Source: a virus. From it: DNA of 64,000 nucleotides. Position 1 is the stretch's first letter; each line of letters begins with the position of its first letter. The stretch is from IMG/VR virus record IMGVR_UViG_3300020182_000026, positions 1 to 64,000 of that record; one strand, written 5' to 3'. A program made the position numbers and the translations under genes. This document shows positions 784 through 40,505 of the stretch, one piece after another. Under the pieces are notes generated by a model. That model searched no databases, had not been told where the DNA came from, and worked only from the letters and a program-made list of their open reading frames with translations.

Positions 784-1106
784 TCAACTACTACCTTATC
801 GTTAAATCCTAAGCTAGGTGTTTTAACGCATACGATATGACATTCTTCTAACAACTCTACAATCGTTACTTCCTTAGGATCAAATATGAATATGTCACCT
901 GGTCCTAATGTTTCTCCGTTTGCAATTAAACTGCCAACAAGCAACAGATTGTACTCAGTAGATAACTCCTGATAATGTTTCTCTGGTGTATCTTCTTTCT
1001 TGTGAATTTGAAATCCAACTTCAAATTCTTCAGTTTTTAAAATTGCAGGTTCAAAGTTTCCTATGAACCACCCTCTTGTAAAGTTTTCAATACGTTCTCG
1101 TTTCAT
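780..1106 (-). CDS. Small cupin-fold protein
   Basis: A 108-residue protein with the pattern of a single cupin barrel: an HYQE segment, a TEYNLLLVG strand, then LGPGDIFIFDP and a closing VKTPS strand. Small cupins of this type sit in phage and bacterial sugar-modification clusters as isomerase-like or binding proteins. The metal-ligand set is not complete enough here to claim catalysis. The ATG at 1106 has only weak Shine-Dalgarno similarity. It is the first gene of a two-gene unit with the SGNH hydrolase and is preceded by a late promoter at 1157-1164. Confidence 0.65.
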   Translation of the reverse strand: MKRERIENFTRGWFIGNFEPAILKTEEFEVGFQIHKKEDTPEKHYQELSTEYNLLLVGSLIANGETLGPGDIFIFDPKEVTIVELLEECHIVCVKTPSLGFNDKVVVE

Positions 1107-1178: not shown

Positions 1179-2117
1179 ATGAAAATTGGCGTATTATTAA
1201 TGGGACAGGTTAGAAATTTTGACGTAACGACAGAATTTCTAAAAAAAGAATTTGACTTGCCGGGAGTAGATGTAGACTATTTCTGCCATACGTGGGACTC
1301 AGTTGTTAATTTTTCACCATGGAATAATATGAAAACAACTGACGAAAGATTTTCTGATTTGCAGATGCATGATCAAGGCAAACTCATGGACACTATTAGC
1401 CTTATTAATCCAAAAAAATCCATTATAGAAAGTTATGACAAATTAGAAGAAATTTTTGATACAATTTATCACCCAGAATACAAAAATGAGACAACCAATG
1501 TTGTACATGACAAATTTTTAGGATGTGGTTGGGCGGCTTTTGACAGTGATAGCACTCTCAAGTTCTCTGATTGGAATTACTATTTCAGTCTATTAGGTCA
1601 ATTTTATAGTACTAGCCGGGCATTAGATTTGCTTTGTGAGTATGAAAGAGAAGTTGGAATAAAATATGATGTCATTGTGCGTTGGCGTTATGATTTGGTA
1701 TCGAACACTCATTACCGAGATACTGATGCCCGTGTTAACCAATGGTGTGTTAACCCAATGAAACATGAACACGGAGATACTATATTCTTTAATTCTTTAA
1801 GTATCTGGCGGGGCATGCAATGCGCTACTGATCATATGTGGTTTGGGGCGGCTGGTGCATTTAAGAGTTATACCGCAAACTTTGATCAAAAATATATTAG
1901 TTTGGTTCGTGCAAAAATAATGAACAACAAGACAGTACTCAATGAAAACGCAGTACAAGATATTATTATTAATCAGAAGATGTCTTCTAAAGAATCCAGT
2001 ATGGGATTAGCGGTCGTAAGACCTGGCGCAACTAAAGAAATGTCGTTTGACGAATTATATGATTTGGAAATCGCACATGAAGCGCAAAAACGATCATTAG
2101 CATTGAGGAGTCAATAA
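1179..2117 (+). CDS. Predicted glycosyltransferase-like protein
   Basis: A 312-residue protein that opens with a MKIGVLLMGQVRNF strand-loop and carries a Tyr-Asp-Val-Ile-Val-Arg-Trp-Arg-Tyr-Asp segment at mid-protein. This 'GQxRxF ... YDVxxRxRxD' layout occurs in polysaccharide-cluster proteins thought to be GT-A-type transferases, with the RxRxD segment in place of the usual DxD. The donor and acceptor are unknown. An AAGAGGTG ribosome-binding site precedes the ATG. The stop overlaps the next gene's start by one base (TAATG), and the next gene is a paralogue, so the two are an operon and perhaps a functional pair. Confidence 0.55.
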   Translation: MKIGVLLMGQVRNFDVTTEFLKKEFDLPGVDVDYFCHTWDSVVNFSPWNNMKTTDERFSDLQMHDQGKLMDTISLINPKKSIIESYDKLEEIFDTIYHPEYKNETTNVVHDKFLGCGWAAFDSDSTLKFSDWNYYFSLLGQFYSTSRALDLLCEYEREVGIKYDVIVRWRYDLVSNTHYRDTDARVNQWCVNPMKHEHGDTIFFNSLSIWRGMQCATDHMWFGAAGAFKSYTANFDQKYISLVRAKIMNNKTVLNENAVQDIIINQKMSSKESSMGLAVVRPGATKEMSFDELYDLEIAHEAQKRSLALRSQ

Positions 2118-2950
2118 TGAAGATAGCATTAGCATTTTTTGGACAGCCGAGAGGCATAGACAATGATATGATTATCGAACAATGGTTAAGGATACTAAGA
2201 GATTCTTCGGAAACTTGCACTTTTGACGTGTATGCTCATTTTTGGGATAACCAAAGTAATACTAAAATTTCAGATACATATGAAGAATTTGTTAAAGAAA
2301 CCCAAGTTGATGCTAACACACATTTTGACAAATTTATAAAGGCATTTAGACCGAAACAACTACACATTGAGCCTTCAAACGTACTAGATAAATTATCTAG
2401 TTTGTATTTTAGCAATAATGAATATGTAAACGCACGAGTTGATCCGGCTATTCCAAGTACTGGACGAGCGACTATTGGCCAATGGTATAGCACCGAACGG
2501 GTACTGGACCAGGTTATTAATAGCGGAGTAGAATATGATATAGTCATCAGAATCAGACCAGATATAATATTCGAACAGACCGAAAGCCATCATAGATTTT
2601 TTGAATTTTCGCTAATAAACCATTTTAAGGCATGTGCTGTCGGTAACAGATGTATTGGTGTTCCTTCTATAGAAATAAAATCAGGAACTCCGATTCTGAA
2701 TGATTGGTGGACGGTTATGTACGGAGGTTTTGTTGAAGAGTTTAAAACAAACTTAACAAAAAATATATCATCGCAAATCAATGCAATATTTACAACTTTA
2801 GATACACCAAATAGTATACAAGAAAATGCACTACACCGACATTGCATCAAACTTGACATCAACGCAGTTTCAACAAAAGCTGAGGCGAGAATTTATAGAA
2901 AAGAAGAAGGAACTTGGGTATGGCCTAATTACTTAGTAGATAGCAAATAG
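2117..2950 (+). CDS. Predicted glycosyltransferase-like protein, paralogue
   Basis: A 277-residue relative of the preceding protein: it begins MKIALAFFGQPRG and contains YDIVIRIRPDIIF, a cleaner version of the RxRxD motif. Both also share a GQWYST/GQFYST segment about 30 residues before the motif, which supports descent by tandem duplication. The gene ends five bases from the convergent radical SAM operon. Glycosyl transfer is inferred from family resemblance and context only; the protein could instead be a glycan-binding or sugar-nucleotide-processing protein. Confidence 0.55.
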   Translation: MKIALAFFGQPRGIDNDMIIEQWLRILRDSSETCTFDVYAHFWDNQSNTKISDTYEEFVKETQVDANTHFDKFIKAFRPKQLHIEPSNVLDKLSSLYFSNNEYVNARVDPAIPSTGRATIGQWYSTERVLDQVINSGVEYDIVIRIRPDIIFEQTESHHRFFEFSLINHFKACAVGNRCIGVPSIEIKSGTPILNDWWTVMYGGFVEEFKTNLTKNISSQINAIFTTLDTPNSIQENALHRHCIKLDINAVSTKAEARIYRKEEGTWVWPNYLVDSK

Positions 2951-2959
2951 ATTATCTAC
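2936..2959. terminator. Hairpin at convergent gene ends
   Basis: GTAGATA (2936-2942) and TATCTAC (2953-2959) form a perfect 7-bp stem spanning the stop codons of the two converging transcription units. There is no long U-tract on either strand, so termination is plausible but not assured. Confidence 0.4.
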
Positions 2960-4179
2960 GTGTGATACTTAGTCTTAACACTGTCCCACGTACTTTGCAT
3001 TTCTGCATTAGTATCTTTTCCACAGAAAATTGAACAAGTGCGTAAGCGTTTATTTCTTACATTGTTATCGTTAAAGTTTTCGACATATTTTTCTTGGAAC
3101 ATTGGACCATCAATTATATCTTTCAGTGTAACATGGCGAAGAGAAATTTTATCTTTACCATAATCATTGATAAACGATTTTAATTGTGATGTTTCTTCAT
3201 TATCATATGCATAATACTTGCTTGCAGTGAAGCAACAGGGCCATACTAATCCTTCACTACTGACAAAGAAACTATCGGATTTCAAAACTAGACAATCAAT
3301 TTTTGTAGAACCTAAATCTTTTTCCCATTGGGTCAATGGTCTAGTGTTATCCATTTTAAATGGCTTCGGAATATACTTAGGCCTATGTTCCTCTAACTTA
3401 AAAGTTTTTAATGCGTGTTTCGATTCTACATCCTCGCCGTCAACCTTGTTAAACGTTGTCTTACTAATATAATCCTTGATGACATTATTTTGCCAGCGAC
3501 CTTCCATTGGAGGTTCAAGTACATAATCTAACTGTCCAGTTTCATTAAACACATGCATTGCCGGAGTAGCCACTCTATCCGTATCACTATTGACAAATCC
3601 GAGTGCCTTTTTATGAAAGAAGTGATCAAACCCCATTTCTTTAGCTAGTGCCTCTGCTTCAGTAACTTGATGTTGATTGTGCTTGAATACTAAATAATCC
3701 CAACGTGCAGTTCCGCCAGCCCCTATATAATTTTTGGCTGCGGACATAATCTTATGCCAGTGAGTCCCACGACGATAGATATGGTTCGTATCTTCTAACC
3801 CATCGATACTAAAAGTAACATGCCCGTTACTACCGACAAGCCTACCTAAATCCTGCCAGAACTTTTCATTACGTCCACTTGCATTAGTATTCATAGTCAC
3901 TTTGATGTTTGGATTCAATTCCTTTGTGTACTCTAGAATTGAAATCAATTCTGGGTTTGTCATCGCATCGCCATAATTACCACAGAAAGAAATAGAAAAT
4001 AATCTAGAGATTAATTCAACTGGGAACCATTTTTTGTATTGTTCTAACGTAACATACGTTTCTGTAAACATCGGATTCTTTATACCGCCGGATTGTCGTC
4101 TGTTACAAACCGGACATAATGCGTTACACAAGCTGCTCACTTCTAAGTCCAAATGTTGTAGTCTGTCATATGTATACAT
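2956..4179 (-). CDS. Radical SAM protein with C-terminal SPASM-like cysteines
   Basis: A 407-residue radical SAM enzyme. The cluster motif CNALCPVC (Cys18, Cys22, Cys25) lies almost at the N-terminus, followed by a TNAS strand and an FSIDG strand typical of the barrel. Instead of the usual GGEP the second strand has CGNYGD. The C-terminal quarter carries further cysteines (IDCLV, PCCF, TCSIFC) resembling a SPASM/twitch auxiliary cluster domain. SPASM enzymes modify peptides or sugars; the substrate here is unknown. It is the last gene of the minus-strand operon, two bases after its neighbour, and differs in architecture from the five others, which have their extra cysteines at the N-terminus. 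Confidence 0.85.
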   Translation of the reverse strand: MYTYDRLQHLDLEVSSLCNALCPVCNRRQSGGIKNPMFTETYVTLEQYKKWFPVELISRLFSISFCGNYGDAMTNPELISILEYTKELNPNIKVTMNTNASGRNEKFWQDLGRLVGSNGHVTFSIDGLEDTNHIYRRGTHWHKIMSAAKNYIGAGGTARWDYLVFKHNQHQVTEAEALAKEMGFDHFFHKKALGFVNSDTDRVATPAMHVFNETGQLDYVLEPPMEGRWQNNVIKDYISKTTFNKVDGEDVESKHALKTFKLEEHRPKYIPKPFKMDNTRPLTQWEKDLGSTKIDCLVLKSDSFFVSSEGLVWPCCFTASKYYAYDNEETSQLKSFINDYGKDKISLRHVTLKDIIDGPMFQEKYVENFNDNNVRNKRLRTCSIFCGKDTNAEMQSTWDSVKTKYHT

Positions 4180-4181
4180 AA

Positions 4182-5372
4182 TTAATGTATCCTCTTAAAT
4201 TCTGGTAAATAATCGCCGATAACTTGGTTACGTATCGTATCTAAGTTACGAGTGTATTCTTTTGCTTGTTCCCATTTCTCTGGTTTATCAGGTCCACCGA
4301 ACATGTTTTTAAATTCTTTTAATTTGTAATCTTCAAATACATTACTAAATCGTTCATGTATGCTATCACGCATAGCTTTAGGTAATGCTGCAGGGGATAG
4401 AATGTCTGGATCATACACATAGTTATGATGAACCCATACTCCATGTTCTCTATGGAAGAAGTTATAAAAGTCTCCTAGAGTAGAGTAGTTCATCCATGAT
4501 ACAGTTTGCGTTACATCAATTTCAAAGTCTTCTTCCTTAATACGTAAGAAGTTCTTCATAACAGTGTCCCATTTAGTTGGGTATCGAATGTAATGATTTC
4601 TATCACCTAGGTCGTCGATGCTACAACTAATCTTCACATGATCGAACTTTCTCCATAACTCTATCACTTCTTCACTCATTAGCGTCATGTTGATATTGTA
4701 CCACAGTTTGATATCTGTTTTACCCATATCAACTAAACGCTCTAAGAACTTAAAGTGTTCTTTGATTAGTGTTGGTTCTCCACCATTAATATAGAATGTC
4801 TTTACTCTGTCGCAATGCTGTAGTAAGTCATTCCAGAACTCTTCACGTTCAGGCCATCTAAAGCCTTCCATCGTGTCATAGCTTGTGAGTTTGAATGTTG
4901 TACTGCTTTGTAGTTTGTCGTAATCGTTACGCCATTTAGATGATGATGCTGGATTACAAGTACGACATGCAACATTGCAAACATTACCTAATCTAAGCTC
5001 AACGAAATCGAGTTGTACATCTTTCATGTAGCCAGTATCGTCAGTGGCGTCCCTAGCGACTCCTACAGTGTACTCAGGATAGTTCTTAATCTCTTCTAAC
5101 CGTTTGCTTTGCATACCTTTTGCTTCTTCCGAGTAACAACGCATACATGCCTTAGGCTTCTTTCCATCAAGTACTTGTACTCTTGCTTTGCGGAATGACT
5201 CGCTATTCATCGTTTCGAATACGGTATCTCTGTTGAGATTATAATAACGTCGATCACCATCTTTCGCACTACTAAGTGCTTGTCTGTGATCCGCAATACA
5301 GCAATGCGTCACACCCCCATGAGGATGTGTCGCTAGGTGTTGAAATAGTAATGGGCAGAATGTATCAGTCAT
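4182..5372 (-). CDS. Radical SAM protein with N-terminal twitch-like domain (1 of 5)
   Basis: A 396-residue enzyme. N-terminal cysteines Cys6, Cys24/25, Cys76 and Cys79 precede the 4Fe-4S/SAM motif CNVACRTC (Cys132, 136, 139) and a GGEP strand at 197-200. This order matches the 'twitch domain-containing radical SAM' type, in which an auxiliary cluster domain comes first. Radical SAM enzymes cleave S-adenosylmethionine to a 5'-deoxyadenosyl radical and abstract hydrogen from the substrate, which is unknown here. The start overlaps the upstream gene by eight bases, so translation is probably coupled. It is the shortest of the five N-twitch paralogues. Confidence 0.85.
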   Translation of the reverse strand: MTDTFCPLLFQHLATHPHGGVTHCCIADHRQALSSAKDGDRRYYNLNRDTVFETMNSESFRKARVQVLDGKKPKACMRCYSEEAKGMQSKRLEEIKNYPEYTVGVARDATDDTGYMKDVQLDFVELRLGNVCNVACRTCNPASSSKWRNDYDKLQSSTTFKLTSYDTMEGFRWPEREEFWNDLLQHCDRVKTFYINGGEPTLIKEHFKFLERLVDMGKTDIKLWYNINMTLMSEEVIELWRKFDHVKISCSIDDLGDRNHYIRYPTKWDTVMKNFLRIKEEDFEIDVTQTVSWMNYSTLGDFYNFFHREHGVWVHHNYVYDPDILSPAALPKAMRDSIHERFSNVFEDYKLKEFKNMFGGPDKPEKWEQAKEYTRNLDTIRNQVIGDYLPEFKRIH

Positions 5373-6645
5373 TATCTATTTGCCCGTGTACATACGCAGA
5401 TAACTCAGGGTATACCGCTCTCCAATCTAAGTTTCTACGTTGATCCATCTTGTCGGAGTATGAAACGAATTCTCGTAACATTTCTAAATCAGGTTCATTA
5501 CTTTCGATTGCTTTATAATATCCCGTTAACATATCAAATTCTTTAGTATCGGGGTTAACCAAATCTATTAGTTTTTGCAAGTCCGGTAACACGTAACTTC
5601 CAAACTTAGTTGGATCTAAAAATGGTGGGTTTTGAATAATGTTCCAGCTTTGTTCAATCTCTTTATCGTAACGTAGTTGATAGTCCAATACTTTTTGTCG
5701 TAATTCCCAATTAGTAGGCGTGGTCAGCGGACAAATTGTACTATGTACTTGAACTGTAATGCCATCTAATTCCATTAGTGTATTGAAGTTCTCTTCCCAT
5801 TGCTCCAAGTCTATCCCGTAACGTGAATATTCTTGTTCAGGTCCCCATGCATCAATACTACATACAACAATCCAATTGTCAATTTTCCCAGTAGCGATCA
5901 TTTTTTGAATCCTTGCAAGTTTCTGTTTGAACAGGCGAGGTTTATGCATCAAATTACTAAACATCTTTATACCGATATTAGAATTATCATTCTCCGATTC
6001 TTCAAAGAATGATAAACATTCCTCGAACTCTTCTTTCTGATACAGTGGTTCGCCACCTAAAATATGAAACATTTTAATTTTGTGTGAATGTTCGTGCATC
6101 CATTCCCAGAACTCACCCTTGCGCTTTTCGTATCTATTTGAACTTGAGAAATTACCATCAAGACTATAGTACTTACTAGCAGGACCATACTTTTTAATCT
6201 CTGCTTCAATTTTACTACTAAATTGCGGTGTGCAATATGTACATGCTAGATTACATGTATTCTTAAAGTATACCTCAACACAGGTAGGAGTCACTTCGTC
6301 TTGTAATTCGTTGTTTTCAGAATACATAATTTCATGCGGATTCCAATTATTCATCGGAGTGAAAACCTGTCTTTCACTCTTGCCGCCGGAATCTTCGACA
6401 CGTTTGCAGTATTGGCAACTGTCCTTAGGCCACTTCCCATCAACCATGCGCTTGCGTTCTTCAACTAATTTCGGATGCTTGTTAAAATCTTTAAAATTAT
6501 CGTCCGGCGATAGATTAAATCCGCCGGTTCGGTGACACATATTGATTTGGTCAAGACTTAGATATAATGTTAACCAACTCCATTTTAACGCACACGCTGC
6601 CTCATTCTGAATAGGGAACATTCTTCCTGATTTATTTTCTTCCAT
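5365..6645 (-). CDS. Radical SAM protein with N-terminal twitch-like domain (2 of 5)
   Basis: A 426-residue enzyme. A TTG codon lies just before, but the ATG at 6645 is chosen because a GGTGGAG ribosome-binding site sits nine bases upstream. N-terminal auxiliary cysteines are Cys18, Cys37, Cys77 and Cys80; the radical SAM motif CNLACTYC is at 131-138; a LGGEP strand follows. The Cys37 position is a single Cys-His rather than the CC pair of its neighbours, so cluster ligation may differ. The gene overlaps both neighbours within the operon. Chemistry is clear at family level; the substrate is not. Confidence 0.85.
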   Translation of the reverse strand: MEENKSGRMFPIQNEAACALKWSWLTLYLSLDQINMCHRTGGFNLSPDDNFKDFNKHPKLVEERKRMVDGKWPKDSCQYCKRVEDSGGKSERQVFTPMNNWNPHEIMYSENNELQDEVTPTCVEVYFKNTCNLACTYCTPQFSSKIEAEIKKYGPASKYYSLDGNFSSSNRYEKRKGEFWEWMHEHSHKIKMFHILGGEPLYQKEEFEECLSFFEESENDNSNIGIKMFSNLMHKPRLFKQKLARIQKMIATGKIDNWIVVCSIDAWGPEQEYSRYGIDLEQWEENFNTLMELDGITVQVHSTICPLTTPTNWELRQKVLDYQLRYDKEIEQSWNIIQNPPFLDPTKFGSYVLPDLQKLIDLVNPDTKEFDMLTGYYKAIESNEPDLEMLREFVSYSDKMDQRRNLDWRAVYPELSAYVHGQIDND

Positions 6646-8032
6646 CAAATCGTCTCCACCAAAGATACAGTTCTGTATCTAATTTGTAAATATCTTCTAG
6701 CCGATATTGTTCTTGTCTAATCTGGTCAAGTCTATCTTGATATCCTTTACCATTCTTAAACTCTTGTTCGTGTGTATCTGGCCATTGTTCTGCAAATGTC
6801 GGACGTTTCTTCATTTCATGTAGAGTGTTAATAAGTGTCTCTTGCTTTTGTGTACCACGTGGTTCCATATATGCTAATAACTCATCAATTTTTCTGTCAA
6901 GAATATGACGTGGCCACGCAAACGGTGACATAACAATATCAGCATGAAATGCAAACATGATTTTTGTTTCCATGCGCACATCTAATTCTAGTGATAAGTC
7001 AAACAAATCTTTTAATGAGAACATGCCTGGACCTGTGATAGTCAAGTCAAATAGCATTTTATGCTTACCACCAGGTGCTGCCAGTCCTTGCTTGAAGTTA
7101 TCTAGCCATTCTTCCCATACGATACCCTTACGAATAAACTCTACAATATCACCAGTACCATCGATAGATGCGCACATTAACCAGTCTTTAAACTGTGGTA
7201 GATAATCAAATAGATTTTTACCTTTGAAGTCTACACGTGATAGATTAGAATTATAACGCAAATAACAGTTCTTTGCAGAACCGTTGTTTACCATTTCTTC
7301 TAATGCCCACCAATGCATATCATACATAAGAGGTTCGCCGCCGACCCAATAGATTTCTTCTACTATGCCGTCACTAATTGCTTTCTTGAACTCAGGTTCA
7401 GCAACGTCTTTCTGAAACTTTTGCATTTTCTGTTTAACAGTAGGTTGCATAAAGGGCTGATTTTCAATACTCCACATGTCGTGTTTCTTCTTTTCAGCTT
7501 CCCATGCACTTGATAATTGCTCACCGCACATACGACACTTGAAGTTGCACAAGTTTGAATAACGATAGTCAAAGGAAATTACTGGCATTTCTGTACGCCC
7601 ATCATCATCTGTCTTATCAAATGCTTCTTGTATCTTATCTTTGAATAGTACACCTGTGAACCATTTGCGATACGAACTTAGTGATAGAGTGTCATCATTA
7701 CACACATCACATTGTGGAATGCGCTCTCCTGCCATTAGCTTCTTACGAATGTCACGCATGTAAGGAGAGTTCCAATGTTCTTCTAGCGTTGTTGGATTAA
7801 AGTCATCAACGTCAGTTTTAGAATCTGTTACTTCCCCATACTTTGAATCATTTGATGCATCGATATACTGCTTTTGAAAAGAGTGTTCTTCACGTGATGC
7901 ACAACACATTCTACGTTCACCTTGTGGCGAGATATAAGTATGTGACCACGGTGCCATACAGAAAGTTTTGTTTTCACTTTCTTCAGCACAACTTGCATCA
8001 TCTTTCCAGATTGGTACGATTCGTTTAGTCAA
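6632..8032 (-). CDS. Radical SAM protein with N-terminal twitch-like domain (3 of 5)
   Basis: A 466-residue enzyme with the most canonical N-twitch signature of the set: FCMAPWSHTYISPQG with Cys25, then MCC (Cys43/44), then CDVC (Cys108/111). The radical SAM motif CNFKCRMC is at 162-169, followed by VGGEP. The FC-x-PW-x-H...G...CC pattern is typical of the auxiliary-cluster modules in peptide- and sugar-modifying radical SAM enzymes. A late segment is rich in charged residues. It overlaps the genes on both sides. The substrate is unknown. Confidence 0.87.
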   Translation of the reverse strand: MTKRIVPIWKDDASCAEESENKTFCMAPWSHTYISPQGERRMCCASREEHSFQKQYIDASNDSKYGEVTDSKTDVDDFNPTTLEEHWNSPYMRDIRKKLMAGERIPQCDVCNDDTLSLSSYRKWFTGVLFKDKIQEAFDKTDDDGRTEMPVISFDYRYSNLCNFKCRMCGEQLSSAWEAEKKKHDMWSIENQPFMQPTVKQKMQKFQKDVAEPEFKKAISDGIVEEIYWVGGEPLMYDMHWWALEEMVNNGSAKNCYLRYNSNLSRVDFKGKNLFDYLPQFKDWLMCASIDGTGDIVEFIRKGIVWEEWLDNFKQGLAAPGGKHKMLFDLTITGPGMFSLKDLFDLSLELDVRMETKIMFAFHADIVMSPFAWPRHILDRKIDELLAYMEPRGTQKQETLINTLHEMKKRPTFAEQWPDTHEQEFKNGKGYQDRLDQIRQEQYRLEDIYKLDTELYLWWRRFDGRK

Positions 8033-9575
8033 CTATAATTCCTCCGAGGGCATCAGTCTCCGTATCCCACCCACCTACTTTTATTTTCTGTTCGTGTGCG
8101 TCATCTCCGCTACCATACTCTTCAGTCGTAGCAGGATCAAGCCCACGTGGTGCATTTTCAAGAATAAATGTCTTAGACTTTATTTGTTCAGCGGTGGGGA
8201 CTTCTGCCTCAAGTGTGTTATACCAATCAGCCATCGGACCTTTAAAGGTTTCAGCGAAACTCTTATTACGTCTTACATCAAACTGTGAAAAGAATGCCTT
8301 AAAGTCGTTGTACAATTTACCTTGATCTGCTGTGTTCTTATGTGGTGTTTTAACAATATCAAGATAGTCGATCAGTCTGCGTACACTTGCGCGTTCATGT
8401 TCGAATATTTTTTTACTATTAAGAAAAAGCCATGAAGTCAATTTGTCTTTGTAGTATTTTTTAAGATGTTCTGGTAAAATCGCGGCACTCTGAAAACTTG
8501 GGAATCGTAGAATGTTCAATGTAAGCGAAGGAGCACGTGGTCCGTATTCTTCACGTAGTTCAACTATTTCATCCATAAATTCAGTGATGCTATTTAAGCA
8601 CAACGAATTGATTGTCATCATCATATGTAGTTTCTGTACATTAGATTCTTTAAGAACACGATGGATACTATTCATCCATTTGTCATAATCCAAACCGTCA
8701 CGTATATACTCAGCTTGATCTTTTGTTGCTTCCATAGAAGTGTAGATTTCAAAGTTAGGAACATACCAAGACTTTTCAATCAACTTGTCTAGTACTTTAG
8801 GAGTTTCTGGTGACAAGTTACTATTAATAGCAAATCGCATATTACGACCACGATCTGGGTTCTTTTCAAACCAATCAAACAACTTCCAAGTACCCGTATG
8901 CATGATGGGTTCGCCACCAGTAATACGAATTTCTTCTAGACTGTCTGCTAAATCACTTTCCCACCATGTATGAAACGCTTGAATGAATGGATTGTCTTCT
9001 GCTTTCTTTGTTGTAGGTTCTGCCCACGGAGCAGTGTCCATAAAGTGGCCGCGCCCATCAGACTGAATATTTTGATATGCGCCATAATCATTGATGTCTT
9101 TAACCCATGCAGTTGAGAATGCTGGATTACAGTAAGTACACTTTAGATTACATGCTCTATCAAATGAGATTTCAAGTGTACGCAACGGTACATTGGAATC
9201 CCATGGCATTTCCATACTCTTGTCAAGGTCTTCATTGCTGAAGATTTCAGTTTTGAATACGCGGTCAGAGATATGGTCTTTGCCCATATCTTCTACTTTC
9301 CAACAGTATTCGCATTCACTAGGACGTTCGCCCTCTTGCATCATCTTACGCATCTTCTTCTTATGCATAGTATTATGAATTGCAGAAGGATTGTCTTTTA
9401 GTTCTTCGACTGGAATCCAGTGTCCAGGTGGGTGATGACAACTTGTAGTTTGCCCATGACCCAACCAAATAGTTGCATTATACCATTTTGCACCACAATA
9501 GCTTGCGCTCTTGGTATCAATTATACGTTCTTTATACTGATGAAGGGTTTCCCCATTCTTGTTGTCACGCGCCAT
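8025..9575 (-). CDS. Radical SAM protein with N-terminal twitch-like domain (4 of 5)
   Basis: A 516-residue enzyme closely related to the next gene upstream. N-terminal cysteines are Cys27, Cys46, Cys88 and Cys91, with a shared C-x-AKW ... CHHPPGHWIP block. The radical SAM motif CNLKCTYC is at 142-149, then TGGEP. The start lies inside the end of the upstream gene (11-base overlap). After the barrel there are about 150 residues with no recognised domain, ending in an acidic, Gly-rich tail. The HPPxHxIP block conserved between this and the next protein may mark a shared substrate or ligand site; that is inference. Confidence 0.86.
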   Translation of the reverse strand: MARDNKNGETLHQYKERIIDTKSASYCGAKWYNATIWLGHGQTTSCHHPPGHWIPVEELKDNPSAIHNTMHKKKMRKMMQEGERPSECEYCWKVEDMGKDHISDRVFKTEIFSNEDLDKSMEMPWDSNVPLRTLEISFDRACNLKCTYCNPAFSTAWVKDINDYGAYQNIQSDGRGHFMDTAPWAEPTTKKAEDNPFIQAFHTWWESDLADSLEEIRITGGEPIMHTGTWKLFDWFEKNPDRGRNMRFAINSNLSPETPKVLDKLIEKSWYVPNFEIYTSMEATKDQAEYIRDGLDYDKWMNSIHRVLKESNVQKLHMMMTINSLCLNSITEFMDEIVELREEYGPRAPSLTLNILRFPSFQSAAILPEHLKKYYKDKLTSWLFLNSKKIFEHERASVRRLIDYLDIVKTPHKNTADQGKLYNDFKAFFSQFDVRRNKSFAETFKGPMADWYNTLEAEVPTAEQIKSKTFILENAPRGLDPATTEEYGSGDDAHEQKIKVGGWDTETDALGGIIVD

Positions 9576-11133
9576 ATTTTACCTCGTATTCTTCTTTAGC
9601 TTCATTCCAAAAGTCTGTCATTTCAGGGAATGTTTCTAAGAAATTTAGTCCCCTACGCTTATCATACTGTGTAAAGTATTCGTAGAAACGAATTAACTTA
9701 TCACTTAATTCTGCGTCACTCATATTTAGTCCTTCTTTTGCCCAAGCCAAATCACGCTCAAGTTTTAAGACTTCATAGTTCTTAAATCCAGTATACTTAC
9801 GTCCATACAAATCATTTGGTAGAACATTTGCTTTCATGTAATCGATATTGCTTTGAATAGTATCAAGCATGATTGGATCTGCTAGTTGAATTGTCATCCA
9901 GTCTGGATAACGTAAGTAAGGAATATCAAACCAAACACGTTGACGTTTCTTGCGCACAAATTTTGGATGCTTAAATCCATTTCGGTCGGGAGGCTGAATA
10001 ACTTTGTCTTCTTGATTTTCATACCCAAATTCTTCGCGCAACTTTAGAATCATATCTAAGAACCCACGTAAATTTGGTATACTAAGGAGAGTAAAAGTGT
10101 TAATAAACGAAATCTCTGTACCATCTGTTTCAGACAATACTCGACGGCAATTTTCATACATCGTATCAAAATCAAGGCCATCACGAAGATATTCAGCCTG
10201 CTTCCCGACACTATCAACACTAACATATAAACTAAAATGCTTACATGCTGGTGCGACATACCAATGATTTCCGCTATCTGGGTTGAAACGTTCTGGATCT
10301 TCCCAAACGCGGACTTCTTCTAATTTCTGTATTTTCTCAATGAACTTATCCATTAACGCTGGTTGAGGAGGCGCCATGTTTGACGTAATACTCAAGTCTA
10401 AGAATGCGTTTGGATTTTCATTGACATAATCTAATACTTTGAATGTATTCTTATCCATAAGAGGTTCACCACCTGTCATTCGGAATACTTTCAATTCGTT
10501 GTACACTTCTGGAAACCATTTCCAAAATGCTTCAATATAAGGATTATCTTTACGTGCTACTTCAAGTGGCATCATACCAGTCTTACGTAGATAATCAATA
10601 TCATTATGCCCAGTACCGTTAGCAAATCTAAAGCCACCATGTTTCTTAACATCATCTTCCCATGCAGTAGATAGATGCGGAGAACAATAAGAACACTTTA
10701 GATTACATGCTTGATTGAAATTTACTTCAACGTATCGCGGTGTTATCTTGTGATCCCAAGGATTGTTTACTACTTCGTCCCATGCTTCTTTGACCCACCA
10801 CTCACTACTGCGATAGTGTCTATCACTTAGACGACCACCTTCCGGGGCATTCGGTGCATCTTCTACATTCCAACAATACTGACAACCTTCAGGACGTTCA
10901 CCCTGCAACATTTGCTTACGCTCTTGCATCTTAAATGTTGTATTGTGTAATGCACCTACATCTTTTTTCAGTTCATCTAACGGAATAGCATGTGTAGGTG
11001 GATGATAACAACTATGTGTACGGCCTTGCGGCAGATGCAAACTTACTTGCAACCACTTTGCCATACACATAGATGGTGAAATAGAATTTAGCTTTTGACG
11101 TGTGCTTACTGCATCGTCATCATAATTTGACAT
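9565..11133 (-). CDS. Radical SAM protein with N-terminal twitch-like domain (5 of 5)
   Basis: A 522-residue enzyme. N-terminal cysteines are Cys23, Cys42, Cys84 and Cys87; the radical SAM motif CNLKCSYC is at 143-150; TGGEP follows. It shares with the downstream paralogue the blocks C-x-AKW, HPPTHAIP, ALHNT, GERPxxCQYCWxVED and AxYLRDGLD, showing a tandem duplication. The ATG directly follows the TAA of the glycosyltransferase-like gene, so it belongs to the same transcript. It has an insertion before the second half of the barrel (roughly residues 275-300) that its sister lacks. Confidence 0.86.
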   Translation of the reverse strand: MSNYDDDAVSTRQKLNSISPSMCMAKWLQVSLHLPQGRTHSCYHPPTHAIPLDELKKDVGALHNTTFKMQERKQMLQGERPEGCQYCWNVEDAPNAPEGGRLSDRHYRSSEWWVKEAWDEVVNNPWDHKITPRYVEVNFNQACNLKCSYCSPHLSTAWEDDVKKHGGFRFANGTGHNDIDYLRKTGMMPLEVARKDNPYIEAFWKWFPEVYNELKVFRMTGGEPLMDKNTFKVLDYVNENPNAFLDLSITSNMAPPQPALMDKFIEKIQKLEEVRVWEDPERFNPDSGNHWYVAPACKHFSLYVSVDSVGKQAEYLRDGLDFDTMYENCRRVLSETDGTEISFINTFTLLSIPNLRGFLDMILKLREEFGYENQEDKVIQPPDRNGFKHPKFVRKKRQRVWFDIPYLRYPDWMTIQLADPIMLDTIQSNIDYMKANVLPNDLYGRKYTGFKNYEVLKLERDLAWAKEGLNMSDAELSDKLIRFYEYFTQYDKRRGLNFLETFPEMTDFWNEAKEEYEVKYGA

Positions 11134-12111
11134 TTAATGTCCGCTCCAACCAGTGGTTTTTTCTGTTGCTAATGGATTCTTTACTCTTGGGGGATTTGAG
11201 TATACTCGCTTGAAAAATGCTGCTACTTCTGGAGTTGGATCACATAGTTCCATACCAATCTTATCAACTAAGATATCACCGATACGCAAACATTCATCAA
11301 ACAACTTATCATAGTCCCATTCTACTTTTGTGTTTTCGCATTTCATTTCACCGCCTTTAAATGGTGGGAAGACTTCGTTTTCGAAATACTCTTTGAACCA
11401 ATCATAGCTAGAAATGTTTTCTAGTACGAAATCAGGGTTAAGATTGATATCATAGCAACCAAGACGTGCGCCGAATAATGCCCAGATGCCGTTCTCTACA
11501 TCAGAACCAATGTTACACCATGTAATTAAACGCTCATAGTTCTTAGGCCAGATACGTTTCTTAAAGTCTTCTACAGGAACTTTCTTACCTTCATCAAGTG
11601 ACATTTTAGCACCTTCACGATAACCAGCACGGAATGCTTGGAACGGTGATCCTGCATTATATACGAGTGAGTACACATTGTTCATCTGAATATAGTTCAA
11701 GTCCCAACAGAAGTCAACCTTTTTTGTTTCATCTTCTGCATTTTCATGTGTCTTCATATCAAGTACAAGTTGTACTGGCCAGCATTTAATTCCGCCGTTG
11801 CCATAAACAAGTCCGTTCACAACGTTCTTCGCTGACCATGAGATAACCGAGTTAGCTAAGTCAGTGTCTTCTGGGAACGTAAGTTCAATATCAAAGAACT
11901 TTTCATCTACGATGTTATCACCGTCGATAGTAATAAATCTGTCTGTATCACTTTGTCTCGCACATTCCTTGTGCGCATTATCAAAACCTTTAACGCCATC
12001 TACACGTTTTGCAAATGGAAACTTCTGTAGCAAGTCTGCCCAGTGTTTCTCTTTATTTGGTTCATCGTAACTTAGATAAAAGATATCTAGTTCACCAATT
12101 TCTAGTTTCAT
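11134..12111 (-). CDS. GT-A-type glycosyltransferase-like protein
   Basis: A 325-residue protein with an RFITIDGDN segment near residue 95, which fits the metal-binding DxD strand of GT-A glycosyltransferases. It is preceded by an alternating helix/strand region like a nucleotide-sugar fold (FAKRVDGVKGFDNAH). Sugar transfer from a nucleotide-sugar donor is the likely role, possibly onto virion or host-surface material. It sits directly ahead of the five N-twitch radical SAM genes, so the products may act in one pathway. No transmembrane segment is apparent. The family is only loosely recognised; an N-acetylglucosaminyl- or hexosyl-specific assignment is not possible. Confidence 0.6.
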   Translation of the reverse strand: MKLEIGELDIFYLSYDEPNKEKHWADLLQKFPFAKRVDGVKGFDNAHKECARQSDTDRFITIDGDNIVDEKFFDIELTFPEDTDLANSVISWSAKNVVNGLVYGNGGIKCWPVQLVLDMKTHENAEDETKKVDFCWDLNYIQMNNVYSLVYNAGSPFQAFRAGYREGAKMSLDEGKKVPVEDFKKRIWPKNYERLITWCNIGSDVENGIWALFGARLGCYDINLNPDFVLENISSYDWFKEYFENEVFPPFKGGEMKCENTKVEWDYDKLFDECLRIGDILVDKIGMELCDPTPEVAAFFKRVYSNPPRVKNPLATEKTTGWSGH

Positions 12112-12113
12112 TC

Positions 12114-12689
12114 TTATGCTCTCCTTAACGAATAACTATCAAAATACTTACGAGTGTAAATACTTATATCGTATTTATAGTCGTAGTTAATTGTTACTTT
12201 TTCACCACTCAGCAAATCACTAAACTTAATCATTTGCATACTAATCAGGAACTCTGGTTTATCTTTGTGTGTAATAAAGAAAGGATGTGAATCAGTTCCA
12301 GCAACTACAACTGATTGGTTCTTGTCTACGTTTGAACGTGCTACTAGGTCATCACTTGCACTGATAACAACAGCATCATCTGTCATTTCTATATTGATAT
12401 CAGCACCATCAATTTCTACAATCTTTGATATTTGGTTCTCTGCACTACGTTGCTTAATATTAACTTTACGCTTTACAATATCATATATCAATGGATTGTC
12501 ACTACGCTTTACAGTATAATCTGAAAACTTATATGTACCATCGATAAACGGAAGAATATCATCTAGTTCAAATATCGCATACATGTTATCAGTGTCATCT
12601 GTTCTTCCACTGATACTTGTTATGGTACCAGTGTCATCAAAGTATACATATCTGTTTGTTCTATTTTCTTCTAATGTACTTGTAATCAT
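12114..12689 (-). CDS. Unidentified protein, all-beta appearance
   Basis: A protein of 191 residues if started at the ATG at 12689, which overlaps the upstream stop as ATGA; a longer frame begins at 12734 but would run well into the upstream gene. The sequence is strand-rich with many Asp, Ser and Thr residues and no cysteine beyond the discarded leader, and no catalytic motif. I do not recognise it. Its position between two glycosyltransferase-like genes in one operon suggests a structural or acceptor role, but that is inference. Confidence 0.6.
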   Translation of the reverse strand: MITSTLEENRTNRYVYFDDTGTITSISGRTDDTDNMYAIFELDDILPFIDGTYKFSDYTVKRSDNPLIYDIVKRKVNIKQRSAENQISKIVEIDGADINIEMTDDAVVISASDDLVARSNVDKNQSVVVAGTDSHPFFITHKDKPEFLISMQMIKFSDLLSGEKVTINYDYKYDISIYTRKYFDSYSLRRA

Positions 12690-13543
12690 AACACTGCCTT
12701 TTCGTAAGTCGCAATCTTTTCTTGTGTCATCCATTCTTTCTGTACATAGTGTACTGGAAGGTTCTGAACAAAGTTACCGATACGAACTTCAAGATTGTCT
12801 GCTAATTCACTTGGGATACTCTTTGTCCAGATGTTATCAATCTTTGCTCTTTCAATATTCTGAACATGTGATTTCATATGAACGAATGTAGGAACATCCT
12901 TAATATCATAATCGCACACAACTTCTTCAATGTCAAGTAGTTTAATCGCAAGAGCATATGCCATATCAGCACTCATCCAATTCTGACCGATACCTTTAAG
13001 AAACTTATCGTAGTAAACATTCCAATGTGTCATAATAAGTTCAATCATACGGAAAAACTCATATGCAGGTTGTGTCTTTTTAAAATACGAAAAGTTGCTG
13101 TATACGTCTGGCAGTTCTAGTTCTGTAAACTTCTTACGGTAGAAGTCATCTACTACATCTTCGCCGCGAAATGTTTTTACGTTTGTACAACACCATACGT
13201 CTTTAGTAGCTAGATAATCCCACCAATGATCCACGCTGTGTGTAAACACCATATCACTATCCAAGATAATCGTTTCATCAAACGGAGACATGTGAATGTA
13301 CTTCCACTTATTATGAATCTTCCAATTATCTGTACCAGCATCATCATTCCAAGGAATATCTACAATATGGTCAAAGACTTTACGGTGTTTATCTTGTACT
13401 AAACTCTTAGTGTGTTCATCTACGCATACACAAATTGCGTTCTCTTGCTGTGTGGCTTTTAAACTAAGTGCTAGAGCATATGTCATTTCTAGGTAGTCAA
13501 ACTCATTATTATTCTGAGCAATTACAATGTAACCTTTACTCAT
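12686..13543 (-). CDS. Glycosyltransferase-like protein with DSD motif
   Basis: A 285-residue protein with ETIILDSDMVF near residue 95, the DxD metal/nucleotide-sugar motif of GT-A enzymes, set after an HNKWKYIHMSPF segment as in GT8-like proteins. The N-terminus (GYIVIAQNN) looks like the first strand of the nucleotide-binding fold. It should transfer a sugar; donor and acceptor are unknown. It overlaps both neighbours by four bases (ATGA type), so expression is tightly coupled with its paralogue at 13540-14406. Confidence 0.7.
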   Translation of the reverse strand: MSKGYIVIAQNNNEFDYLEMTYALALSLKATQQENAICVCVDEHTKSLVQDKHRKVFDHIVDIPWNDDAGTDNWKIHNKWKYIHMSPFDETIILDSDMVFTHSVDHWWDYLATKDVWCCTNVKTFRGEDVVDDFYRKKFTELELPDVYSNFSYFKKTQPAYEFFRMIELIMTHWNVYYDKFLKGIGQNWMSADMAYALAIKLLDIEEVVCDYDIKDVPTFVHMKSHVQNIERAKIDNIWTKSIPSELADNLEVRIGNFVQNLPVHYVQKEWMTQEKIATYEKAVL

Positions 13544-14406
13544 AGTGTTTCTCCTAGTTCTAACATCATATCAACATTACGTTCAATCGCACGTTTATTC
13601 ATAATATGTAAATCTGTATTAGTGAAGCGGGACAACAAGTGTTCTTCGATTGTTTCTGCTTTAGCACAATACATGATAACATCATTCGCACTATTTACCC
13701 TAAAGATATCATCTAAGTCAAACGAGTTGTTAAGATAGTCTATAGGAAGTGACGGCGCACTAAATGCTACATTTCCGTTTAACATGTGCAATGCAATTGC
13801 AAATGCAAAATCGTTTCTAAACAGATTACCAGAGCAATTGTATAGAGCATAATAGTATTTGTAGTTGTACTTGATATGTGTGATTAGATTGAACAAGTTT
13901 TCTGCGAACTCGCTCTTTCTAAAGAAGAACACAGTCGCCCAACACATTGGAATAGTAAAATCATCAATATAGGAAACATTACCGCCATGTCTACCAGCAA
14001 TGTCCCTATATTGATAATTAATCATGAAGTCATTCTCGCTTCCCCATACCTGGTCAAGTGTGTCACTCATTATAAAGTAATCACAGTCAATGACCAATGT
14101 TTCTTCATATGGTGAAAGTTCATATACTTCACTGCGTCCCATATTTTTAAAGGATGCATACTCAGGACTGTTCGCAGTATCTTTGAACAGTCTAGTATTC
14201 TCTGGTTGAAAGTTATCTGAAATAATAGTTCTATCAAAATATTGCTTGATTAGTTCCGGATGTTCATCTGCCGAGGCGCTATCTGTAACGAGACAAATTT
14301 CGTCAAATTCACTAAGATTTTTCCTAGCATAACCAGCACTTGCACATGCAATCTTCACATAATCAACGTAACCATTATTTCTTGCAAAAAGAATAATACC
14401 GCGCAT
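13540..14406 (-). CDS. Glycosyltransferase-like protein with DCD motif
   Basis: A 288-residue paralogue of the next protein: it begins MRGIILFARNNG and has EETLVIDCDYF near residue 100 as the DxD site. It also shares the 'SPYEET/SPFDET' lead-in. The pair resembles the cytoplasmic GT-A transferases often seen beside tail genes in aquatic phages. It may decorate tail proteins or modify host glycans; the sequence does not decide. The ATG overlaps the upstream stop by one base (TAATG). Confidence 0.7.
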   Translation of the reverse strand: MRGIILFARNNGYVDYVKIACASAGYARKNLSEFDEICLVTDSASADEHPELIKQYFDRTIISDNFQPENTRLFKDTANSPEYASFKNMGRSEVYELSPYEETLVIDCDYFIMSDTLDQVWGSENDFMINYQYRDIAGRHGGNVSYIDDFTIPMCWATVFFFRKSEFAENLFNLITHIKYNYKYYYALYNCSGNLFRNDFAFAIALHMLNGNVAFSAPSLPIDYLNNSFDLDDIFRVNSANDVIMYCAKAETIEEHLLSRFTNTDLHIMNKRAIERNVDMMLELGETL

Positions 14407-14786
14407 TAGATTTCAAGTACCTTTTCAATCTTGCGTGAACTACGCAATTTTTGATAGTCATTGTAGTACTCATTGATTACTTCGAAGTAAAGACTGCTAA
14501 TATCTTCTAAAAACTTTTCAGTGTCATCAATTTGGATTGGAATATCATTCTTGTCCAATAAAATTAGACTTGTCTTACCAGATACAACAGCCATATTTAC
14601 AAAAGCAATAAGCTCCTGTGATACGCGGAATGTACCGCCATTAGTGCTGTGTGACAATAGGTTTTGTGTCTTGACTTTAAGATTATTCTTAGCCAAGTTA
14701 AATGTTTGCATTGTGTTTGAAAAGTCCAGTGCTTTAGCAAGACGTTCTTGTTCAGCACTAGAGGAATTGATAGTTTCGTTTGACAT
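14406..14786 (-). CDS. Conserved-looking small phage protein, first gene of the radical SAM operon
   Basis: A 126-residue helical protein with a central STNGGTFRVSQELIAFV segment and a basic C-terminal helix (YQKLRSSRKIEKV). Proteins of similar layout occur near tail genes in marine myoviruses, with no known function. An ATTAGGAGAA ribosome-binding site precedes the ATG. It is the first gene after the sigma70-type promoter at 14811-14839, so it is expected to be made together with the glycosyltransferases and radical SAM enzymes. Confidence 0.65.
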   Translation of the reverse strand: MSNETINSSSAEQERLAKALDFSNTMQTFNLAKNNLKVKTQNLLSHSTNGGTFRVSQELIAFVNMAVVSGKTSLILLDKNDIPIQIDDTEKFLEDISSLYFEVINEYYNDYQKLRSSRKIEKVLEI

Positions 14787-14842: not shown

Positions 14843-15817
14843 TTAAAGTTCAGAAATATGAGAATATGTCGGAGTTGGAGTAACAACACCTAATCCAGAT
14901 ACATCATTATCATCTGCACGTTGTTGATCAATCGTTACAGTAAGTGTGCCTTCTGTATAGTCAGTGCCTGTCCAAGTGCCACCACCGTCATTTGTCCATG
15001 TACCTGTATCAGATACGTGACCATCATTGTATTCAATCTTAACATCAATCGCAGAACCATTTGTTTTCGCATACACATTAAGTTGGTTTTGTACATAATC
15101 ACCAATGCCACCTTTTGTATACACAAGCGCATATGTTGCAGTTAGACCAGTAAATCCTACACCCGGAGTACCAACACTTGCTGAACTTTCTGTAGAATTA
15201 TTTGATAATTTAACAGTTGCAATATCTGTTAATAAATCCGCCCATGCATCACTTTGTGCATGTGATATATCATAACCTGTTAATTCAGTTGATATACGAA
15301 TTTCACCACCTGAGTTAAAGAAGTTACGCATTGCATCTGTATCTGAGAATGTAGTTTTGAATTCGTAATTTTGTGGGTTATTTGAATTATCCCAATGATT
15401 ACCTGTTGATCCAGGATCTACGAATGTCTTTGATGACGAAATTTTGTTTGTCTCAAGCGTCATCAAAGAGATGTCGTAGTTTAGTTTATTAGCACGAACA
15501 CTAGTAATATCATTTTCTAGGTCTGGAATTAACTGAATGATTTTGTTTGGTGCTGGGAAATCTGAGTCACTAGTACTAGCCGGAATATTAATAGCTGTTG
15601 ATTGGTGTTGAGCGGCGAACTTAATAGATGTTAATAGTTCATCCCAATTCGCCGCCCGTACTTTTGAACCAGCGGTCACAAGAGTTACCAGTAGCTGTGA
15701 TTGGCCATAACCCGAATCACCTGCCCCTAATCCAACAATCTCATTAATATCATTTGCGAAACCGTTGAAATCAGATGCCCTGATTTTGCCTCCCAGATAG
15801 TAACTTTGTGGTGCCAT
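14843..15817 (-). CDS. Virion structural protein, tail/baseplate-associated
   Basis: A 324-residue protein, Gly/Ser/Thr/Asn-rich and all-beta in appearance. Its N-terminal part (KIRASDFNGFANDINEIVG) and a FFNSGGEIRIS block are shared in pattern with the next gene upstream, as is the C-terminal TGTWTNDGGGTWTGTDYT. Such paired proteins lie after the baseplate wedge genes in marine T4-like phages and are virion components of unknown position, perhaps baseplate-peripheral or short-fibre proteins. The last codon overlaps the -35 region of the next operon's promoter. Confidence 0.65.
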   Translation of the reverse strand: MAPQSYYLGGKIRASDFNGFANDINEIVGLGAGDSGYGQSQLLVTLVTAGSKVRAANWDELLTSIKFAAQHQSTAINIPASTSDSDFPAPNKIIQLIPDLENDITSVRANKLNYDISLMTLETNKISSSKTFVDPGSTGNHWDNSNNPQNYEFKTTFSDTDAMRNFFNSGGEIRISTELTGYDISHAQSDAWADLLTDIATVKLSNNSTESSASVGTPGVGFTGLTATYALVYTKGGIGDYVQNQLNVYAKTNGSAIDVKIEYNDGHVSDTGTWTNDGGGTWTGTDYTEGTLTVTIDQQRADDNDVSGLGVVTPTPTYSHISEL

Positions 15818-15841
15818 TTAATTTGTCCTCAGTGTATTATT

Positions 15842-16759
15842 TTATAATGTATTTGTTACTGTACATGTTGGGTTAGTCAATACCACCGAACCACTTGCAT
15901 TCGATAATTTTAGTGAAGAAACATTTACAGTTGATGTACCTGCCACGCTATCTGCACCAGTCCAAGACCAAGCACCGCCATAACCAGAGCCTGAACCAGT
16001 ACGTGCAACGTGTGCGTCTACTAGACGTACTGTGATGTAAAGGTCTGAACCAGAAATGTAAGCTGAAATGTCTGCATAGTTTGATGAATAATCACCGTCG
16101 TCTGCATACTCACGTTTTACATAAGCGTTTGATGATGTTAAGTCTGAGTACTTCTTACGTGTTGATGTATCAATGTTAGTTGAATCTGTCGCACGAACCG
16201 AGAAACGATATGTTCCCATTTCACCTGTAAGTTGTTCCCATGAAGTGCCTTGTTGGTTACCTGTTGGATCATCGTGTGACATTGAAACGCGAATTTCACC
16301 GCCAGCAGCGAACCAGGCATGCATATTAGTTGTTGAACCGAAAGCTACTTTCGTTACTGTATCACGTGTGCCGTTCCAGTTTGAAACAGTTTGCGTTGTT
16401 TCTGTTGCAGTTGTTGTGTCCCAACCTGATGAATAGCTCCATGGTGAGTTGAAACGTGTGTTAATATCGCTTTCAAATGTTGCCGCGGCGCCCGCATAGT
16501 GTGACCATGCAACGACTGTGCCTGCATTTACTGCTGTAAATGGGTTTGTAATATTATAATAGTTTGAAATTTTTGCTGCTGCCGAGTAAAGTGAATCGAA
16601 GTATGCATCATCGATTAAATCACCTGTACTTGGGTTAGCAGCAATTGTGTGACCTTGGTTGTAACCACCTGCTACACCGGTTCCGTTAAGAATAGTGTTC
16701 ATTTTGGTACGTAGGCTTGCAAATGGGTCATTTGCATTAATTGTATCTCCTACAGCCAT
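15842..16759 (-). CDS. Virion structural protein, paralogue
   Basis: A 305-residue paralogue of the preceding entry, with NANDPFASLRTKMNTIL at the start, WFAAGGEIRVSMSH in the middle and a WSWTGADSVAGTSTV block near the end. The shared GGEIR(I/V)S block and C-terminal Trp-Thr-Gly-Thr/Ala block show common origin. It lacks recognisable enzymatic motifs. The ATG follows a TTAGGAGC ribosome-binding site. A terminator-like hairpin lies between it and the upstream gene, so some of its expression depends on read-through. Confidence 0.65.
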   Translation of the reverse strand: MAVGDTINANDPFASLRTKMNTILNGTGVAGGYNQGHTIAANPSTGDLIDDAYFDSLYSAAAKISNYYNITNPFTAVNAGTVVAWSHYAGAAATFESDINTRFNSPWSYSSGWDTTTATETTQTVSNWNGTRDTVTKVAFGSTTNMHAWFAAGGEIRVSMSHDDPTGNQQGTSWEQLTGEMGTYRFSVRATDSTNIDTSTRKKYSDLTSSNAYVKREYADDGDYSSNYADISAYISGSDLYITVRLVDAHVARTGSGSGYGGAWSWTGADSVAGTSTVNVSSLKLSNASGSVVLTNPTCTVTNTL

Positions 16760-16805
16760 ATTTTTGCTCCTAAGTTGACTAGTCGTTTAGTTGGCTTACG
16801 CCTTT

Positions 16806-16838
16806 AAAAACCAAGAAAGATTTTCCGGATTCTTTCTT
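16806..16838 (-). terminator. Rho-independent terminator
   Basis: On the minus strand AAGAAAGA and TCTTTCTT form a perfect 8-bp stem with a 10-base loop, followed by GGTTTTT. The stem begins at the stop codon of the gene ending at 16837. Confidence 0.7.
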
Positions 16839-17499: not shown

Positions 17500-17527
17500 T
17501 CGTATCTCTCTTTTCAAATTCTAAGTA

Positions 17528-17535
17528 TATTTATC
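17528..17535 (-). promoter_or_regulatory. Late promoter GATAAATA
   Basis: The minus strand reads GATAAATATACTT in the 58-base gap between the giant gene and the gp8-position gene, 29 bases before the ATG at 17499. Confidence 0.6.
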
Positions 17536-40390: not shown

Positions 40391-40416
40391 CATAATCTCC
40401 TAGATATTGTTATCAG

Positions 40417-40424: not shown

Positions 40425-40449
40425 GTTGAATAATATACGCACTTAACAC

Positions 40450-40478: not shown

Positions 40479-40505
40479 ATTAATAATATTTAGGAGAATA
40501 CCATA

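Follow-up and report, generated by a model that had tools for sequence, protein, structure and literature searches.

The radical S-adenosylmethionine (SAM) enzymes of phages usually occur singly or in small numbers. The Campylobacter phages CP220 and CPt10 carry many of them (11 and 12 genes, respectively, five in an interchangeable module), for which a metabolic boost was proposed (PMC2853527). In the pelagimyophages, radical SAM cassettes are found with GT8-rich glycosyltransferases in the host-recognition cluster (PMC7029224), and both kinds of gene are enriched in viromes of the Tasman Sea (PMC7150976). Here we describe an operon in which six radical SAM genes follow glycosyltransferase-like genes, found in a window of 64,000 nucleotides from a large marine phage (positions 1-64,000 of the IMG/VR virus record IMGVR_UViG_3300020182_000026, 72,893 bases in full). 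An earlier note on this DNA knew of no described system of this form, which in view of CP220/CPt10 and the pelagimyophage cassettes was too strong. Radical SAM cassettes near phage tail genes were already known, and it is the enzyme family, the arrangement, the scale and the link to Bdellovibrionota that appear to be new. The literature that we searched held no paper on arrays of the family NF033640 (see below), nor on phage twitch-type radical SAM enzymes with fibre or glycosyltransferase genes, and nothing on this system under Bdellovibrio radical SAM or Bdellovibrio jumbo phages.

The operon occupies 14786-2956 of the minus strand, behind a perfect sigma-70-type promoter (TTGACA-17-TATAAT, 14839-14811, minus strand), and ends in six adjacent radical SAM genes (2956-11133). 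Its genes, in order of transcription, are the following (lengths in amino acids, aa).

14406-14786, minus strand: U126, conserved 126-aa protein, first operon gene, cysteine-free, function unknown
13540-14406, minus strand: GT1, glycosyltransferase-like protein with D107xD109 and a weak match to phrog_1903
12686-13543, minus strand: GT2, GT8/glycogenin-like glycosyltransferase with profile matches to glycogenin and phrog_1903
12114-12734, minus strand: U206, fast-evolving protein, function unknown
11134-12111, minus strand: GT3, predicted GT-A-like protein with D63xD65N66 and a confident model
9565-11133, minus strand: RS1, N-twitch radical SAM enzyme, NF033640 305.1 bits, modelled radical SAM fold
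8025-9575, minus strand: RS2, N-twitch radical SAM enzyme, NF033640 304.7 bits
6632-8032, minus strand: RS3, N-twitch radical SAM enzyme, NF033640 331.8 bits
5365-6648, minus strand: RS4, divergent N-twitch radical SAM enzyme, NF033640 220.6 bits, rare among relatives
4182-5372, minus strand: RS5, N-twitch radical SAM enzyme, NF033640 354.5 bits
2956-4179, minus strand: RS6, radical SAM enzyme of classical order with C-terminal SPASM/twitch-like cysteines, PF04055 30.1 bits

The genes touch or overlap (spacings of -49 to +3 nt), the value of -49 hinging on the start chosen for U206, whose true start is probably downstream of the first ATG. Among the 43 open reading frames (ORFs) of at least 150 aa in the window, only RS1-RS6 contain CxxxCxxC, a motif that shuffled copies of each of these proteins yield in 0.15-0.7% of cases. 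RS1-RS5 all exceed the curated cut-off (170 bits) of NF033640, the NCBIfam family of N-terminal twitch radical SAM enzymes, whose entry states no function, and share with it four N-terminal cysteines (C-x17/18-C-x40-64-CxxC), the CxxxCxxC motif and GGEP. The four cysteines are invariant across 35 diverse family members, and the auxiliary domain around them matches the twitch domain of BtrN, the 2-deoxy-scyllo-inosamine dehydrogenase (profile positions 6-78 to BtrN 184-259, E 6.1e-6). RS4 is the outlier of the five, with a long branch in the tree and a cluster of 4 ORFs only. With regard to the general radical SAM profile PF04055 (gathering score 29.5), RS2-RS6 lie above it (30.0-41.0 bits) and RS1 below (25.3 bits), yet RS1 has the CxxxCxxC motif and its predicted model (predicted local distance difference test, pLDDT, 91.9) has a radical SAM fold. 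RS6 scores only 52.9 bits against NF033640 and is not filed in the family. Its CxxxCxxC lies at residues 18-25, it has cysteines at 296, 315, 316, 382 and 386 and GNYGD where the others have GGEP, its match to the C-terminal SPASM/twitch domain PF13186 (20.1 bits, E 8e-4) is under the gathering score of 21.5, and a sequence search of PDB gave no match for RS6 alone.

The evidence for the glycosyltransferase-like proteins is uneven. The D107xD109 of GT1 is invariant in 24 orthologues and its best PDB profile matches are all to glycogenin, yet weak (E 0.09). GT2 has a DxD and matches glycogenin at E 7e-6, over the N-terminal ~110 residues only. For GT3 there was no convincing PDB sequence-profile match, so its assignment rests on the predicted model (pLDDT 88.5, Foldseek E 2e-3), which reaches Z 9.8 at most, over ~137 residues, to a glycosyltransferase. 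U126 has no significant Pfam or PHROG family. Much of what the earlier note had read from the letters is thus confirmed, i.e. the single perfect promoter, the touching or overlapping genes, the six adjacent CxxxCxxC genes, five with extra N-terminal cysteines and GGEP and one with C-terminal cysteines. Supported, too, are the auxiliary-cluster type of the enzymes (by the family profile and the BtrN-type domain) and the glycosyltransferase-like partners (by the GT2 match and the GT-A-like model of GT3). Its three DxD proteins need one amendment: the DxD motifs of GT1, GT2 and GT3 are kept among relatives, but U126, with which the operon begins, does not belong to the DxD proteins.

Compared with this operon, the CP220 cluster, which follows baseplate genes and includes two nucleoside diphosphate (NDP)-sugar transferase-like genes and an amidinotransferase gene, has a different gene order. 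Our own search found 11 radical SAM genes in CP220, whose best NF033640 match (E 7e-9) is under the cut-off. By gene order and by this match the operon does not belong to the CP220-type modules, and no U126-GT1-GT2-GT3 core was seen in CP220 or CPt10. The pelagimyophages, represented by Pelagibacter phage Mosig, resemble our locus in that their tail-fibre region combines glycosyltransferases (many of them GT8) with radical SAM cassettes, but Mosig has no NF033640 match and two PF04055 matches only. Among isolated large phages, Vibrio phage K566 (OZ196521) has six NF033640 matches in its genome and three annotated radical SAM genes that form a tight group interrupted by a single gene; however, identity to RS5 is about 24% and no U126/GT core was detected. 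The Vibrio natriegens phages CZ01 and QD01 have a single related gene. At the level of single enzymes, BtrN shares the twitch-type auxiliary domain of RS1-RS5 (N-terminal in these, C-terminal in BtrN) and the cytosylglucuronate decarboxylase BlsE resembles the RS enzymes in its radical SAM core, both at low overall identity.

The system was seen in well over a hundred contigs of uncultured viruses in IMG/VR, while tblastn against isolated phages gave no match for RS1, GT2, GT3 or U126, nor for the U126 and GT2 of a divergent relative. The gene order in these contigs is fixed, i.e. fibre genes, U126, GT1, GT2, U206, GT3 and then a radical SAM array of 0 to ~21 genes. In the 64 loci that had RS1 and enough upstream sequence, U126-GT1-GT2-GT3-RS1 followed in order on one strand in 56, and a fibre-like gene lay upstream in 58. 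RS2 is the gene immediately after RS1 in 51 of 76 loci and RS3 is present in most, and in total the array proteins form 52 clusters at 50% identity, in varying numbers and with inversions in some loci. As many as 21 NF033640 matches (E <= 0.001) occur per whole record when RS6-like proteins are counted in. By gene calls, one relative (G008) has 13 N-twitch and ~8 other radical SAM genes in 38.6 kb and another (G029) has 12 and 5 in 55 kb (G029 and G031, like G008 and G019, look like near-copies and are not to be counted twice). Some related contigs are as long as 342 kb and one reaches 608 kb. Since the window starts at the first base of the record, inside a region that in some relatives runs tens of kilobases further, its array may be truncated. 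We also examined 55 contigs that were collected through GT3 or U126 and that contain three or more core genes and at least 6 kb of downstream sequence. In the stretch examined, 14 of them had no N-twitch gene downstream of the core, which makes the array a variable add-on and the glycosyltransferase core the constant part; cores without radical SAM genes still adjoin fibre-like genes.

The islands of three relatives (G029, G008 and G001) also hold genes for a carbamoyltransferase, a uridine diphosphate (UDP)-sugar dehydrogenase, an epimerase, a DegT aminotransferase, a sugar C-methyltransferase, TylF, a cytidylyltransferase/mannose-phosphate isomerase, a B12-binding radical SAM protein and an acyl carrier protein. 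In a relative's island (L129:7261-7497) an acyl carrier protein gene (PP-binding, E 1.5e-13) adjoins a radical SAM gene. Two other loci (G003:C1:10481-11791 and G005:C1:38702-40012) have a TAA stop inside the frame matching RS3, which may mark a broken gene or simply lie where the match ends. In a contig that by its title belongs to a metagenome-assembled genome (MAG) of Neomarinimicrobiota (L137), the gene order is that of the phages, from fibre genes through U126 and GT genes to radical SAM genes; this appears to be a phage contig that was assigned to a bacterial MAG, and one from a Flavobacteriales MAG (L140) may be another.

The operon and the neighbouring fibre genes differ in promoter class, and for this comparison two further features of the window are needed.

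14843-17517, minus strand: TF1-TF3, three putative tail-fibre genes upstream of the operon, called from synteny, position after a 2995-aa virion protein and a late-type motif
40506-41402, plus strand: gene for a T4-type late sigma factor (phrog_12791, E 1e-77)

The virion protein of 2995 aa matches PHROG and jumbo phages such as PA5oct, Salicola phage SCTP-2 and Atu_ph07, and there are baseplate and portal genes as well. Before TF1 there is a late-type motif, GATAAATA (17528-17535), whereas the operon has the sigma-70-type promoter, and both arrangements are common to the relatives, an unexpected pairing. Among 41 distinct U126 orthologues, drawn like the other promoter counts from related sequences, a sigma-70 match of at least 10/12 precedes 34 and one of at least 11/12 precedes 23, a score that no shuffle reached. 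None of 34 distinct TF1 orthologues reaches 11/12, and 30 have [TG]ATAAATA, as against 7% of shuffles. From these motifs we infer that the operon is an early or middle transcript and that the fibres are expressed late. The late sigma gene itself lies behind a perfect sigma-70 promoter (40450-40478). This promoter is part of a divergent region (40380-40510), with GATAAATA, the late-type motif of a tail operon, on the other strand.

A second unexpected feature came from bacteria (group names are those in the record titles). In a profile scan of genome contigs, RS1/RS2-like proteins were found mainly in MAGs of Bdellovibrionota, which include lineages of predatory bacteria. Full N-twitch proteins (E <= 1e-40) were present in 41 of 144 sampled genomes of this group, often many in each, and in 3 of 249 and 1 of 148 genomes sampled from the phyla of a Pelagibacterales and a Flavobacteriales MAG, respectively, the seed genome being one of these positive genomes in each case. 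Several of the Bdellovibrionota hits are chromosomal, since they are on contigs of 0.9-2.7 Mb. RS1, RS2, RS3 and RS5 of the window each have their own orthologue in these chromosomes, as in a quick tree each falls in its own clade with Bdellovibrionota sequences (SH-like approximate likelihood ratio test, SH-aLRT, 100 at the shared nodes). The orthologues also occur together without phage genes, as RS2-RS5-RS3-RS2' (L158), RS3-RS5 (L159 and L187) and RS3/RS5/RS2 (G057). GT3 homologues (37-49%) were found in eight of these genomes, several of them adjoining N-twitch and RS6-like genes. We infer an exchange of genes with Bdellovibrionota, in either direction, the likely host being found there.

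Some individual bacterial loci can be described here. In a Bdellovibrio MAG (L136:8707-13526) an RS1 homologue in an 834-aa frame lies between two flagellin genes, with two glycosyltransferase-like genes, judged by N-terminal sequence only, nearby. In one Bdellovibrionota chromosome (L156, G045:C7:80001-100000) an N-twitch run with no glycosyltransferase beside it directly follows the ATP synthase operon. A chromosomal island of another (L153-L154, G043:C15, ~638000-665000) has many gene families in common with the phage islands, and one of its proteins shares 62% identity with a protein of the phage islands (G001:45288-46463).

The common thread of these loci is glycosylation machinery together with C-H chemistry, near fibre genes in the phages and in varied places in Bdellovibrionota. 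The explanation that we tentatively prefer, at a little under an even chance, is that a host-like toolkit of radical enzymes feeds a glycosylation core and edits a surface glycan or a glycosylated surface protein. The locus would then be a phage glycosylation core (U126, GT1, GT2, U206 and GT3) with an attached, expandable radical SAM array. The core glycosyltransferases would transfer sugars, and each radical SAM enzyme would cleave SAM at its CxxxCxxC cluster, giving a 5'-deoxyadenosyl radical that would abstract hydrogen from a sugar, a glycan or a glycosylated protein, while the four-cysteine N-terminal auxiliary cluster would take up or supply electrons as in BtrN. In this way a series of enzymes would oxidise, epimerise or deoxygenate an unusual glycan or glycosylated protein of the surface. 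Because the promoter is of host type, the products would probably be made before, or independently of, the late virion genes, and would then work on the surface of the host or be available to the fibre proteins of the adjoining genes. The exchange of these enzymes would have been with Bdellovibrionota, which are probably hosts now or were so in the past.

Several observations weigh against this glycan-editing explanation. The nearest solved structures to the RS1 model in a DALI-style comparison (SkfB, BlsE, anSME, SuiB, MoaA and DesII, Z 13-13.9) include enzymes that act on peptides (SkfB, SuiB, anSME) and on sugars (BlsE, DesII), all within roughly one Z unit, so the fold of RS1 does not tell a peptide from a sugar substrate. 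Nucleotidyltransferases (Z 9.0-9.1) score nearly as high as GT-A glycosyltransferases for the GT3 model. Several of the Bdellovibrionota N-twitch sets have no glycosyltransferase beside them. The proposal of the earlier note that the operon builds or edits a sugar gains from the NDP-sugar tailoring genes in some relatives, but these are not in the window. Finally, a second and wider promoter sample was weaker, with a sigma-70 match in 45 of 79 loci where N-twitch genes are present and in 2 of 13 where they are absent, and the sigma-70 call is a consensus match and not measured expression.

A narrower explanation, doubtful in our view but deserving to be weighed, is that the glycosyltransferases and radical SAM enzymes specifically modify the fibres encoded upstream, by glycosylation and C-H chemistry on side chains or attached sugars, and so alter host range or adhesion. 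The constant adjacency to fibre-like genes, which persists where radical SAM genes are absent, fits such fibre maturation, as do the similar placement beside tail genes in Mosig and the position of the CP220 cluster after baseplate genes, with its two NDP-sugar transferase-like genes. Against it stand the operon's own sigma-70-type promoter, as opposed to the late motif of the fibre genes, and the orthologues of RS1, RS2, RS3 and RS5 in Bdellovibrionota chromosomes without tail genes. The decoration of tail proteins suggested in the earlier note draws on synteny only, and the same two observations oppose a purely virion-specific role.

It is quite unlikely, we think, that the array instead boosts or replaces a cofactor or metabolite pathway of Bdellovibrionota during infection, the glycosyltransferases being chance neighbours in a hypervariable region. 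The concentration of N-twitch enzymes in Bdellovibrionota genomes over the two other phyla and the varied housekeeping genes that adjoin the chromosomal sets would suit such a role, and a metabolic boost is also the published guess for CP220/CPt10. The strict GT1-GT2-GT3-RS1 order in phages, however, suggests a functional coupling to glycosylation, as does the adjacency of N-twitch genes and GT3 homologues in Bdellovibrionota. The peptide enzymes among the neighbours of RS1 and the SPASM-like cysteines of RS6 would also be compatible with a pathway for a ribosomally made, modified peptide (RiPP). This is very improbable because the genes of the operon are spaced too tightly for a precursor-peptide gene among them, where none was found (the flanks were not exhaustively searched for small ORFs), and because the smallest gene, U126, encodes a conserved protein that has neither cysteines nor a variable core region. 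Least probable of all is a piecemeal collection of independent radical SAM genes with no single pathway, to which the many clusters, varying numbers and inversions might point, but against which RS2 so often directly follows RS1, RS3 is present in most loci and, in chromosomes of Bdellovibrionota (L158, L184), the orthologues of RS2, RS3 and RS5 remain grouped.

Under the glycan-editing explanation that we prefer, this is apparently an undescribed virus-borne toolkit for editing an unusual surface sugar or protein, with arrays of 6 to ~21 enzymes behind a fixed glycosyltransferase core and orthologous sets in Bdellovibrionota chromosomes. It suggests a possible role for the orphan family NF033640 and offers a testable host hypothesis for a group of uncultured jumbo phages. 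If glycans or glycoproteins are indeed edited, the arrays would be a large untapped set of C-H-functionalising enzymes and possibly a new layer of phage-host recognition. A bolder and rather unlikely extension is that large marine Bdellovibrionota phages carry an expandable, exchangeable radical SAM code of up to ~20 enzymes, host-derived or shared, with which they rewrite surface glycans or glycosylated fibres in many combinations; recognition or superinfection immunity would then be determined by the set of radical enzymes and not by the fibre sequence alone.

Beyond the end of the operon, the window contains two further small units.

76-1106, minus strand: pair of genes for an SGNH-like and a cupin-like protein, the latter matching phrog_24762
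1179-2950, plus strand: two genes for RxRxD proteins (phrog_13607)

The earlier note had taken these genes as tailoring steps of the pathway, but they are outside the operon transcript, the RxRxD genes on the opposite strand and the SGNH/cupin pair as a separate minus-strand unit. Pfam gave nothing for the SGNH protein, the cupin protein or the first RxRxD protein. Both units have late-type motifs, at 1157-1164 before the SGNH/cupin pair and at 1125-1132 before the RxRxD genes. A second perfect sigma-70 match (506-534, minus strand) lies inside the SGNH-like gene and is probably due to chance or an internal promoter.

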